43,351 bases of DNA from Mariprofundus sp. (GTDB lineage Bacteria > Pseudomonadota > Zetaproteobacteria > Mariprofundales > Mariprofundaceae): NCBI GenBank assembly GCA_021772775.1, contig JAJFLH010000024.1, positions 1 to 43,351 of the forward strand. The letters run 5' to 3'. Position numbers and translations under genes: made by a program. Shown here one piece after another: positions 16,857 to 35,723 of the stretch. How positions within the stretch are numbered: position 1 is the stretch's first letter; each line of letters begins with the position of its first letter. The notes under the pieces are model-generated. The model saw nothing but the letters and a program-made list of their open reading frames with translations. It was not told the DNA's origin and searched no databases.

Positions 16857-17141
16857 GTGACCAAAGCTGAGATTGCCAAAATTGTTCATGAACGCGTCGG
16901 TTTGACTAAAAAAGAGTCAGCTCAAATCGTTGAGTCTGTATTGGCTGAAGTACGGAAATCCCTTGAAAATGGCGATAATGTTAAACTTTCGGGTTTCGGT
17001 CATTTTATTGTGCGCCAAAAGCATGCGAGACGGGGGCGTAACCCAAAAACAGGTGCGGATATCACCATCGCGCCACGTTCAGTTGTGACGTTTCGCGCTA
17101 GCCCGTTACTTAAACAGAAGTTGATTGGAGCAGATGAATGA
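16857..17141 (+). CDS. ihfA: Integration host factor subunit alpha
   Basis: 94-residue DNA-bending protein of the HU/IHF family. It has the family signature GFGHFIVRQKHARRGRNP with the intercalating RNPKTG turn, and the N-terminus TKAEIAKIVHERVGLTKKES typical of the alpha rather than the beta subunit. The start is GTG 16857 with GAGGGA close upstream. The MerR-like gene overlaps its stop by 4 bases. The ihfA-merR pair is a conserved proteobacterial arrangement, usually after pheT, which is absent here. Confidence 0.94.
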   Translation: MTKAEIAKIVHERVGLTKKESAQIVESVLAEVRKSLENGDNVKLSGFGHFIVRQKHARRGRNPKTGADITIAPRSVVTFRASPLLKQKLIGADE

Positions 17142-27068: not shown

Positions 27069-27866
27069 ATGAAAGTCGCCTCTATTCAGATCTGCTCCGG
27101 GCTTGATAGGGATGCCAACCTTGCAACCGTTGAGCGTTTGTTTAAACAGGCTGCGGAGCAGGGTGCTGAATTGGCTTTGTTGCCGGAGACGTTTGTCTTT
27201 ATGGGTGGCAGTGAAATAGAAAAGCGTCAGATGGCAGAGTCTCAAGAAGACTCTGCGACGCTTCGTTTTCTATCCGGGCAGGCGGCCAAACATCAGATGT
27301 CTATTGTCGGTGGTACGTTGTTGCTGAGAGGTGAGACAGACCGCTTGCGTAATGTTTGCCCTGCTTTTGACTCGGCCGGAGCGCTATTGGCTCTGTACGA
27401 TAAAATTCATCTGTTTGATATGAATTATCAGGGTGAGTCGTACCATGAGTCAGCTCTGATTGATGCGGGCAGTGAGCCGGTAATGATTTCAGTTGGTGAT
27501 TTCAAAGCTGGCCTGAGTATCTGTTACGACCTTCGTTTTCCCGAACTTTTTCGTAGATATGTAGATGATGGCTGCGAGCTATTATGTAATGTGGCGGCTT
27601 TCACTGCTGTGACTGGACGCGTGCATTGGCAGACATTGCTGCAGGCCAGAGCAATCGAAAATCAATGTTATGTACTGGCGTCGGCGCAGTCCGGTGAGCA
27701 CCCTGATGGACGACAAACCTGGGGTCATAGTATGATTATTGATCCTTGGGGTGAGGTGTTATGCGAGCTTGCTGGAGGGGAGGGTGTGATCGTTGCAGAT
27801 GTGTCAAAAAGCCGGCTTAAACAAGTGCGCCTGTCTCTGCCTGCTTTACAACATCGACGGCTTTGA
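27069..27866 (+). CDS. Carbon-nitrogen hydrolase (Nit1/deaminated-glutathione amidase-like)
   Basis: 265 residues of the nitrilase superfamily with the catalytic triad Glu40 (LLPETF), Lys112 (YDKIHLFD) and Cys152 (SICYDLRFPELFR). The motifs QARAIENQCYVLA and GHSMIIDPWGEV are typical of the Nit1/NitFhit branch, whose characterised members hydrolyse deaminated glutathione, a metabolite-repair reaction. Assignment to that substrate is by resemblance. It follows the DUF4438 gene closely. Confidence 0.88.
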   Translation: MKVASIQICSGLDRDANLATVERLFKQAAEQGAELALLPETFVFMGGSEIEKRQMAESQEDSATLRFLSGQAAKHQMSIVGGTLLLRGETDRLRNVCPAFDSAGALLALYDKIHLFDMNYQGESYHESALIDAGSEPVMISVGDFKAGLSICYDLRFPELFRRYVDDGCELLCNVAAFTAVTGRVHWQTLLQARAIENQCYVLASAQSGEHPDGRQTWGHSMIIDPWGEVLCELAGGEGVIVADVSKSRLKQVRLSLPALQHRRL

Positions 27867-28168
27867 AATGGTCGGATGCATTGTGAATGGTTTTAGTCAT
27901 CTTGTAGCTTGACTTGGCTCAAACCCTTGTAGTTAAAGGCTTTCCCAAGTTACCCACAGAGGTTGTGGATAACTCAGTGGATAAGGTCTCCTAGTTTCAT
28001 GTTTTACTTGCTTAAATGAAAGATATGGTTGTTTTGCTTAAAATATAGGCATTCATATTACGCCTTAATTAACAATAGCTTATCTATTTTATCTAAGCAT
28101 GTAATGACGTTTGATTGCCTGTTCTTAAATAAATCTTAATTTTTCATGCAAGCAGTGGATAAAACTAG
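27867..28168. other. Gene-free gap with DnaA-box-like sites (possible replication origin)
   Basis: About 300 bases between convergent genes. Three 9-mers close to the DnaA box TTATCCACA lie together: TTACCCACA (27950-27958), TGTGGATAA (27964-27972, a perfect box on the minus strand) and AGTGGATAA (27976-27984); a fourth AGTGGATAA is at 28154-28162. Between them, 27995-28150 is strongly AT-rich (TTAATTAACAATAG, CTATTTTATC). Clustered boxes beside an AT-rich unwinding stretch are the layout of a bacterial oriC. Neither dnaA nor dnaN is adjacent, and a DnaA-titrating or regulatory locus is also possible. Confidence 0.45.
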
Positions 28169-28636
28169 TTATTCCAATGCATTCAGTTGTCTTAAGGCTT
28201 CAAATGTAACAATCGAGCAGGCTGACGAAAGATTGAGTGAACGCACCGGTGCATCGCTGCGCATCGGGATAGTTAATGCATGTAGGTCGGCTAGGATTTC
28301 GGCGCTGAGCCCGCGTGTTTCAGGCCCAAATACCAATACGTCACCAGCGCAAAACTTTGCATCCCAATAGCTCTCTTTGACCTTAGAACTCAGCCCATAC
28401 CAGTTGCGGTTTTCGCCAATGGCCTGACGTGCTTCCTGCCAGTTCTGATGCTGTTGAACATCCATGTGTTGCCAGTAGTCAAGGCCGGCACGTCGCAGTT
28501 GTTTGTCACTAATTTCAAAACCCAGTGGATGGATGAGATGCAGTTTGCATCCGGTACAGGCGCAGAGCCGAGCGATGTTGCCCGTATTGGGCGGTATCTC
28601 AGGCTCAAAGAGTACGATATGTAAAGGTGTTTTCAT
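28169..28636 (-). CDS. trmL: tRNA (cytidine(34)-2'-O)-methyltransferase TrmL
   Basis: SPOUT-class enzyme methylating the ribose of nucleotide 34 in tRNA-Leu isoacceptors. 155 residues from ATG 28636, as in E. coli (157). Characteristic pieces: HIVLFEPEIPPNTGNIAR, the SAM-knot sequence VLVFGPETRGLS and the C-terminal VRSLNLSSACSIVTFEAL. An in-frame start at 28732 would add 32 residues of hydrophobic sequence foreign to the family, so I rejected it. It ends next to the DnaA-box gap. Confidence 0.94.
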   Translation of the reverse strand: MKTPLHIVLFEPEIPPNTGNIARLCACTGCKLHLIHPLGFEISDKQLRRAGLDYWQHMDVQQHQNWQEARQAIGENRNWYGLSSKVKESYWDAKFCAGDVLVFGPETRGLSAEILADLHALTIPMRSDAPVRSLNLSSACSIVTFEALRQLNALE

Positions 28637-28970
28637 GATGCGGTAAGACTTAGTCAGGAGCAACTTAAGTGCAACAGCGATCATGAGTGTCAGTAGGGCG
28701 ATGGCCTTAAAACATCCAGTTTTCTTCTTCACTTGTTCACAGTGATAGGTATTATCACTGTCCGATATCTTTATAAATGGATCTCTTTTTTGTCATATTT
28801 GGGGCGGCAGGCTAGTCGCTAGGATGACGCTATCGTTTTAATGCGATTGCCTGGTGGGTATACGCCGTTAATAAGCATAGATAAAAGTACGTGTAATAAG
28901 CCTGCAACTGGCATGGAAGTTGCTCAAAAGATAATCGTTGGAAGTTCCTTAATCGTAACGAGGTATATGC
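28637..28970. promoter_or_regulatory. Divergent intergenic region with palindromic operator-like site
   Basis: 334 bases between trmL and the chemoreceptor gene. At 28740-28760 CAGTGATA-N5-TATCACTG is a perfect 8-bp inverted repeat, shaped like a dimeric repressor operator. No T run follows, so it is not a standard terminator. Otherwise I see no gene or known riboswitch in it. Confidence 0.45.
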
Positions 28971-33551: not shown

Positions 33552-34646
33552 ATGAAAATGAAATTATTATGGGTGGCTTTGTCAGCAGCCCTATTGTCAG
33601 CCCAGCCGGGTATTGCTTCAGGTTTGAAAGGAAAAGTAGTTCAGGAGCCGCTGTATACTGTTTCACCGCTGCTTGTTAAAAAGGGTGTGGACAGTACTTA
33701 CCCATCCGTGGCGGGTGATTTCATGGTGTTTAGTACCACTGCCGGTGATAGATATCGTGTTGAAAGGGTTTCTAAGCATTCACCGGCATCAGCATCCCGC
33801 ATGCTAAAGACCATGAAAATACATGAAGCGATTCGTTTTGGTACGGCTGTGAGTGATGGTTCAGTTGGTTATGTCAGTAATCGTACCGGCACTATTTCTG
33901 CCTGGATGTGGTTGGGCAATGGTGAAAGTCATGCTGCAATCGGTCATATGGGGGGCTTCTCTGGCAATCTTGCATCACACCATTTGAATGGATCGCTTGA
34001 TGGTAAGGTTTGGTGTTATGACACCAGTCTGCAAAAAAAGCGTTTGAATACGATGTTGAATGAATTTGCATCAAATGCAAAGGACGAGTTAATCGGTCAG
34101 TTATGGCGCACTTATGATTCTGATAGTTATCGCTATAAACAGGGTTACCGGGCCACTGAATCGGGTAAAAAGAATGATTTTTCTGCACCAGTGTTGTATG
34201 TGTTTAACCGAGAAACCTCGCAGTTGAATATGATACCAAATGCTTATGATGGCACAGTTTCTGCAGATGGCCGTAAGGTGGTTTTTGTGCGCGAAACTAA
34301 TGGTAATTATGATTTATGGATGCAGACTGTTGATGGTAGGGAACTGACTCAGTTAACCGATTCTAAATACGGTGATTTTGAGCCGCAGTTTAGCCCTGAT
34401 GGCAATAAATTATTGTTTGTTTCCAATCGTGATTATGAAGGATCTGTAACGAAAAGCTCAATCTATATGATGGATCTTAAAAGCTATCAGATCACACGTT
34501 TGACTAATGCGAAAGGTGCTGTTGATGGTGGGCCTGCCTGGTTGGATGAAAGTACGGTAGTGTTCCACTCTAATCGTGACCTTAAAAAACCTCAGTCTAA
34601 AGTAGATTCTGACTGGAATATCTGGCAGTTGAAACTTAATAAATAG
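33552..34646 (+). CDS. Exported TolB-like beta-propeller protein (first of pair)
   Basis: 364 residues with a signal peptide (MKMKLLWVALSAALLSAQ, cleavage near GIASG). Several WD40-like/TolB repeats are visible in the C-terminal half: TVSADGRKVVFVRETNGNYD, EPQFSPDGNKLLFVSNRD, GGPAWLDESTVVFHSNRD. These are the DxDG-P-like blades of the PD40 family. The N-terminal half is less regular. No tolA, tolQ, tolR or pal lies nearby, so it is not the Tol-Pal TolB itself. AGGAGATGAATC sits just before ATG 33552. A CRP/FNR-type site lies upstream. Confidence 0.85.
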   Translation: MKMKLLWVALSAALLSAQPGIASGLKGKVVQEPLYTVSPLLVKKGVDSTYPSVAGDFMVFSTTAGDRYRVERVSKHSPASASRMLKTMKIHEAIRFGTAVSDGSVGYVSNRTGTISAWMWLGNGESHAAIGHMGGFSGNLASHHLNGSLDGKVWCYDTSLQKKRLNTMLNEFASNAKDELIGQLWRTYDSDSYRYKQGYRATESGKKNDFSAPVLYVFNRETSQLNMIPNAYDGTVSADGRKVVFVRETNGNYDLWMQTVDGRELTQLTDSKYGDFEPQFSPDGNKLLFVSNRDYEGSVTKSSIYMMDLKSYQITRLTNAKGAVDGGPAWLDESTVVFHSNRDLKKPQSKVDSDWNIWQLKLNK

Positions 34647-34655
34647 GAGCACAAT

Positions 34656-35723
34656 ATGCATCGAATAATTGCTCTTACGGTAATGTTGGTGGCTTTTGCG
34701 CCATCATTACAGGCAGAAGACTTTCTCAATTGGTTAGATGCCGTAGGCTCACAACATAGTGATAAGAGTGTGATTGAAGGGGATCGAGCCGAGTTGATCA
34801 CACTTGAGAAAAGGGAAACTGAGATGTATCCCAAAGTGTCTCCCGATGGGAAATACTTTTTAACGGTGTCGAGTAAGAGTCGTCAATATATGATTACACG
34901 ACGACTTTTAGAAAATGGAGATCCTATCAATGTTGTCAGTGAATCTGATCCGCAGGCACTGGATTCAATTGCATGGTATGGCAATGAGGCTGTGACATTT
35001 CTGTCATTTCGAGCAGATAGCCCAGGGCTTTGGAAAAAGCCGGTAACTGGTGGTGTGACCCGGCGCTTGAATGGGCGACTGGATGGTGAGTTAAGAAGTC
35101 CAATCGTACTCGAAGATGAGAGCATTATTGCCGTACGTTTGCACTCCTCTTCACGTCTTGTGGCACCGAAGAGTGTGAAGAAAAAGAGCCATAAGCTGGC
35201 TTTTGACAACTGGCAGTCGAAGGGTAAACAGCCGCATCTGATTAAAATCAGTAAAGAGGGGGTGGAGAGTGAGCTTGCTTCAGGTGTGAATCCATCACTA
35301 TCTCCGGATGGTAAGCGTTTGGTCTTTTCAATGCAGGCAGGACGCAGTTGGCATCTGTTTATGATGAATGTGGATGGCTCAGGATTAATGCAGCTGTCTG
35401 AAGGGCGCAGCATTGATGTGCAGCCGACCTGGAGTCCTGATGGTAAGTGGGTGGCTTTTACATCCAATCGTGGTGACGCGGATATGCGTCAGAGCCAGAA
35501 AGGTAATTGGGATATTTGGATGATTGCTCACGATGGACGTCATTTAACCCGATTGACGATGGATGATGCAAAGGATGGTGCTCCGAGCTTTGCTAAAAAT
35601 GGCAGGATCTATTTTCATTCGGATCGAAAAGTGAGTAAACAGGATCTTGCAGATCATCAGTTGCATGGTTCCGTTCGGGGTTTTCATGTCTGGAGTGTAA
35701 TGTTGCCAGCAATGGCAAATTAA
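34656..35723 (+). CDS. Exported TolB-like beta-propeller protein (second of pair)
   Basis: 355 residues with a signal peptide (MHRIIALTVMLVAFAPSLQA, then EDF). PD40 repeats: YPKVSPDGKYFLTVSSKS, NPSLSPDGKRLVFSMQAG, QPTWSPDGKWVAFTSNRG and APSFAKNGRIYFHSDRK, spread through the whole chain more regularly than in its neighbour. It begins 9 bases after the first propeller's stop with AGGAGC 6-11 bases upstream, so the two are one transcript and probably arose by an old duplication; identity between them is low. The function is unknown; periplasmic protein-protein binding is the usual role of such propellers. Confidence 0.85.
   Translation: MHRIIALTVMLVAFAPSLQAEDFLNWLDAVGSQHSDKSVIEGDRAELITLEKRETEMYPKVSPDGKYFLTVSSKSRQYMITRRLLENGDPINVVSESDPQALDSIAWYGNEAVTFLSFRADSPGLWKKPVTGGVTRRLNGRLDGELRSPIVLEDESIIAVRLHSSSRLVAPKSVKKKSHKLAFDNWQSKGKQPHLIKISKEGVESELASGVNPSLSPDGKRLVFSMQAGRSWHLFMMNVDGSGLMQLSEGRSIDVQPTWSPDGKWVAFTSNRGDADMRQSQKGNWDIWMIAHDGRHLTRLTMDDAKDGAPSFAKNGRIYFHSDRKVSKQDLADHQLHGSVRGFHVWSVMLPAMAN

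Follow-up and report, generated by a model that had tools for sequence, protein, structure and literature searches.

The window analyzed here, 43,351 nucleotides of Mariprofundus sp. DNA, makes up all of contig C17 in a genome of 3.12 Mb and 40 contigs. Between convergent genes for a nitrilase-superfamily amidohydrolase and TrmL, it contains four DnaA boxes (Table 1). The initial annotation had described this gap, and its box sequences and positions, the convergent flanks, and the AT-rich stretch are all confirmed. The stretch of 169 bp separating boxes III and IV is 71% AT, against 54% for the window, a composition reached by 0.46% of 169-bp windows. The orientation of the boxes had been left unstated: box I is inverted with respect to boxes II, III, and IV, and the core boxes start at relative positions 0 (+), 14 (-), and 26 (-). 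None of 1000 windows simulated with a first-order Markov model contained a triple as tight as the one within 35 bp, likewise reported there. Isolated boxes with one mismatch show no enrichment in the window, 18 being present where 12.6 would be expected. Elsewhere in the window, positions 33552 to 35723 hold a tandem pair of adjacent TolB-like beta-propeller proteins.

Table 1. Coordinates of the element, its flanking genes, and ihfA in the window
Feature	Position	Strand	Description
ihfA, integration host factor alpha	16857..17141	+	Candidate trans factor, unlinked to the element
Nitrilase-superfamily amidohydrolase	27069..27866	+	Deaminated glutathione amidase-like; upstream flank of the element
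Upstream dyad	27921..27943	+	AAACCCTTGTAGTTAAAGGCTTT in the window; consensus AA....TTG......AAGGG.TT
DnaA box I	27950..27958	+	TTACCCACA; most orthologs have CTATCCACA; 5-bp spacer to box II, to which it is head-to-head
DnaA box II	27964..27972	-	Perfect TTATCCACA; invariant columns in the alignment
DnaA box III	27976..27984	-	TTATCCACT; 3-bp spacer from box II
17-bp palindrome	28035..28051	.	TGCTTAAAATATAGGCA in the window; consensus TGCCTAAAATTTAGGCA; about +85
Predicted IHF-like site	28070..28082	+	TAACAATAGCTTA, one mismatch to WATCAANNNNTTR
DnaA box IV	28154..28162	-	TTATCCACT; 178 bp from box III
trmL	28169..28732	-	Downstream convergent flank; synteny anchor for orthologs

Modular structure of the element

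The three-box core is one module of an element of approximately 245 bp, which also includes an upstream dyad, a palindrome, an IHF-like site, and box IV. These modules keep fixed places in alignments of 82 elements and, separately, of 64 nonredundant elements; the box pattern is kept in relatives, which is the outcome that the initial annotation had asked of an origin or titration locus. DARS are defined by three DnaA boxes with the same spacing at DARS1 and DARS2, box I being opposite to boxes II and III (PMC5742627), and the head-to-head arrangement of boxes I and II is characteristic and essential (PMC10380432). Judged from its sequence, the element conforms to the structural definition of a DARS core in box order, orientation, and spacing, and its box I occupies the position of box I of the Escherichia coli DARS.

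The upstream dyad occupies conserved columns -30 to -8 in both alignments. A covarying hairpin is not claimed for it, as its inverted-repeat score (4.96) is only in slight excess of that of shuffled sequences (4.18). Eight of the ten palindrome matches in the genome lie inside elements; the other two (C8 and C24) are without DnaA boxes. By eye, the palindrome matches the Fis consensus, but its assignment as a Fis site was rejected because a stand-alone Fis was not found.

An IHF-like match with at most one mismatch is found between +110 and +130 in 44 of the 82 elements, compared to 1.65 expected from shuffled sequences. The alignments show one conserved IHF-like site, at +119 to +121; the DARS2 subtype has two IHF sites (IBS1-2) at fixed spacing from the core. 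In 68 of the 82 elements, box IV, a GTGGATAA box, lies at +201 to +205.

Copies in Mariprofundaceae and their genomic contexts

The spaced box pattern is found in most members of Mariprofundus, at nine places in the source genome and in 2, 4, and 5 places in three other genomes of the genus, while a reversed-pattern control yielded 0 matches in every genome searched. In Mariprofundus ferrooxydans PV-1, a fifth core, on contig C3, is weaker (box III, GTGCAT) and lies approximately 3.3 kb from the trmL-linked copy.

The nine copies lie beside unrelated genes, among them those for SelO, a DinB-type polymerase, LpxK, an ABC1 kinase, COQ7, and PFK. DnaA also acts as a transcription factor, and the element is intergenic and adjoins gene ends, as would a DnaA-regulated promoter, a terminator, or a noncoding RNA of the flanking genes. 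This diversity of neighbors argues against such a role, and the lack of a divergent promoter gap at any of the nine copies argues against a promoter in particular. An Rfam search of the element gave no match, and promoter- and terminator-like hits in it are at the level of shuffled sequences. We consider this explanation highly improbable.

The chromosomal origin

The cluster of DnaA boxes adjoining an AT-rich stretch had initially been interpreted as the chromosomal origin, oriC, or as a DnaA-titration locus, and a skew switch elsewhere together with a denser box cluster had been named as the pattern that would speak against an origin. This is the pattern found. GC skew, sampled from stretches of the source genome, is positive throughout the window, with no sign change. 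The sign changes on contig C10, at dnaN-dnaA, where a gap of approximately 1.1 kb carries many DnaA boxes and represents a denser box region than the cluster in the window. This gap (approximately 74.1 to 75.3 kb of C10), the probable oriC, contains an imperfect duplication with a distance of approximately 486 bp, whose duplicated parts are GTCATCATCATAGGGCCTGTG and box blocks. In two closed genomes of the same genus, dnaA is located at approximately 0.4 kb, and a second skew flip near the midpoint marks the terminus. An origin is expected at a single locus; the element is present in nine copies, with the main box array at dnaA-dnaN, and the copies in the closed relatives are terminus proximal. 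There is accordingly next to no chance that the element is oriC. The broader part of the initial proposal, a DnaA-binding control locus other than the origin, stands in kind, and the box arrangement is closer to that of a DARS than to a plain titration site. The location away from oriC, as assigned by skew, is the one expected of a DARS.

Chromosomal position and polarity

In the two closed genomes, all of the copies, seven in number, fall between 0.71 and 0.95 along the ori-ter arm, with the trmL-linked site 71 to 74% of the way toward the terminus, and all seven are co-oriented with the replication fork. A wider set of 101 element loci from fetched sequence was grouped by flanking genes into locus classes. 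In 13 of 13 classes, the core lies on the G-rich strand, which is the leading one (two-sided p = 0.0002). The grouping by single linkage combines certain loci, and skew stands in for fork direction in this count, but the closed genomes are in agreement. Judging from the positions of oriC and ter, E. coli DARS1 is co-oriented with the fork and DARS2 is not; fork polarity is therefore not a known property of DARS. When moved to the terminus, E. coli DARS2 is weaker, and datA, which is normally near oriC, is less effective there (PMC5010248).

These data also bear on whether the element could be a dispersed repeat or the remnant of a mobile element that carries DnaA boxes by chance. Six copies in the source genome are paralogous over about 220 to 430 bp, with 69 to 94% identity, and one copy lies near an IS-type integrase gene, as might be expected of such a remnant. 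However, the other three copies (C17, C11b, and C22) resemble the rest mainly at the core, and 25 alignment columns are invariant across species amid drifting spacers, which points to selection. The recurrence of the trmL-linked copy across genera of Mariprofundaceae and the orientation with replication in every locus class likewise argue against a mobile origin, which we consider very unlikely.

Candidate trans-acting factors

In addition to ihfA in the window (Table 1), the genome encodes IhfB on contig C26, where the neighboring gene specifies an rpsA-type protein with S1 repeats. A stand-alone Fis was not found in the genome, where the best match to the Fis family is a 467-aa NtrC-type protein that scores below the cutoff. 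Contig C20 encodes a divergent Hda-like protein of 222 aa, which is below the family cutoff but spans the model. Near its N terminus, it contains the sequence QLRLQMDI, whose QLRL resembles the clamp-binding motif of Hda. Since this protein is present, a pool of ADP-DnaA in need of recharging is plausible.

Proposed function

The observations to be explained are the arrangement of the element, its conservation, its multiple copies, the IHF genes, and the chromosomal position and polarity. Taken together, they indicate that the element is probably of the DARS type. The best reading is a Fis-independent, IHF-assisted DARS, a proposed function under which the element would most likely work as DARS do; as the search for a Fis protein gave none, the element is not assigned to the DARS2 subtype. 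The absence of a divergent promoter gap among the copies in the source genome counts for this assignment, as transcription through DARS is harmful in E. coli (PMC5010248).

By extrapolation from E. coli biochemistry, on which the nucleotide exchange, the action of IHF, and the parts played by box IV and the palindrome are all modeled, two ADP-DnaA molecules would bind head to head to boxes I and II and a third one to box III. Contacts between the AAA+ domains of the bound DnaA might then loosen ADP, and the released apo-DnaA would reload ATP, giving more initiation-competent DnaA. IHF bound at +120 would bend the AT-rich arm, and this bend might carry box IV and the palindrome, with a dedicated factor, toward the core, thereby switching the reaction.

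Several features count against a DARS. A stand-alone Fis was not found, although E. coli DARS2 needs this protein; box IV is reversed compared to box V of DARS2; and the palindrome has no DARS counterpart. The copies are nearer to the terminus than the E. coli DARS, up to nine copies are unusual, and the order box-IHF-box on the other strand resembles datA.

This last similarity underlies the main rival, a datA-like or titration locus, at which IHF and the boxes would assemble ATP-DnaA, with ATP hydrolyzed (DDAH) or DnaA sequestered. Read from box IV, the element has the order box(+), IHF(-), box(+), box(+), box(-), and E. coli datA has box(+) at 1245, IHF(-) at 1310, box(+) at 1407, and box(-) at 1419. 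Several high-affinity boxes per copy, in up to nine copies, would also bind much DnaA. However, the 14/12 spacing of boxes I, II, and III is that of DARS and not of datA, and datA is a single copy near oriC, whereas the Mariprofundus copies in closed relatives are terminus proximal. We regard a datA-like or titration role as rather unlikely, if the most serious alternative to a DARS.

A more specific version of the DARS assignment combines polarity, terminus proximity, and multiple copies into a class of Zetaproteobacterial DARS that might sense the progress of replication. A fork nearing completion would pass several identically oriented elements, duplicating or remodeling them; IHF and a dedicated palindrome-binding factor would replace Fis, and DnaA would be recharged such that a new round starts only once the preceding one is all but complete. 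This joint proposal is speculative, and we give it a low probability.

Distribution in other bacteria

Many proteobacteria carry DARS-like sequences (PMC10380432), and beta- and gammaproteobacterial species that have IHF and Fis conserve the arrangement of DARS2 (PMC5742627). Among named genomes, exact matches to the core plus box IV come mostly from Mariprofundaceae and Competibacteraceae, with a few others. With up to one mismatch, the core is found in 56 of the 398 Pseudomonadota genomes drawn. Cores in Kurthia and in a Clostridiales metagenome-assembled genome (MAG) adjoin dnaA and were rejected as DARS, being probably parts of origin regions. In many Competibacteraceae MAGs, the core sequence is nearly the same and is accompanied by a distal box at a distance of about 213 bp, and in Contendobacter odensis the core element lies beside proS. 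A genome from another family of Pseudomonadota has two DARS-type cores in the same orientation 465 bp apart, each with TGTGCATAA approximately 200 bp downstream. On a single small contig of a Burkholderiales MAG, two elements made up of a core and a distal box stand in tandem at a distance of 1.5 kb (positions 268 to 469 and 1825 to 2027).

Literature searches on DnaA in Mariprofundus and on replication origins in Zetaproteobacteria turned up no paper about such an element. The papers found treat DARS of E. coli and of its beta- and gammaproteobacterial relatives, with a DARS2 that depends on Fis. The Mariprofundus element shows the same core in Zetaproteobacteria, in a genome in which a stand-alone Fis was not found, together with a new conserved palindrome, up to nine copies, and a fixed orientation with respect to replication. 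The occurrence of such elements in an iron-oxidizing zetaproteobacterium suggests that the DnaA control system reaches, in a rebuilt form, beyond the class of E. coli. If the element is a DARS, recharging of DnaA by chromosomal DNA would occur more widely, and in a more modular form, than has been described. The protein that binds the palindrome would be a concrete missing factor to find, and a comparison of species with 2 to 9 copies would allow the position, dosage, and polarity of DnaA-control sites to be put to the test.

Comparison with known systems

The same core, with a distal box about 200 to 215 bp away, is found in gammaproteobacterial MAGs of Competibacteraceae and Methylococcales. 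These DARS-like cores differ in genomic context (e.g., proS in Contendobacter) and, by eye, are without the Mariprofundus palindrome. With E. coli datA, the element shares the order box-IHF-box when read on the other strand, and its core spacing is different.

E. coli DARS1, located between bioD and uvrB, shares the order, orientation, and 0/14/26 spacing of the core boxes. It works in vitro without Fis (PMC5742627). DARS1 is only 101 bp long, lacks a match to the IHF consensus within one mismatch, and has no box at +204, the nearest one-mismatch box being at +223.

E. coli DARS2, located between rppH and mutH, is likewise intergenic. Its core boxes (I+, II-, and III-) are at 0/14/26, its IHF-like site is on the same strand at +109, compared to about +120 in the Mariprofundus element, and its distal DnaA box is at +211, compared to about +204. 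With respect to DARS2, the orientation of box IV is reversed, no stand-alone Fis was found in the genome, and the palindrome at +85 and the upstream dyad are new. The Mariprofundus element also differs from DARS2 in its number of up to nine copies, their terminus-proximal location, and their consistent polarity.
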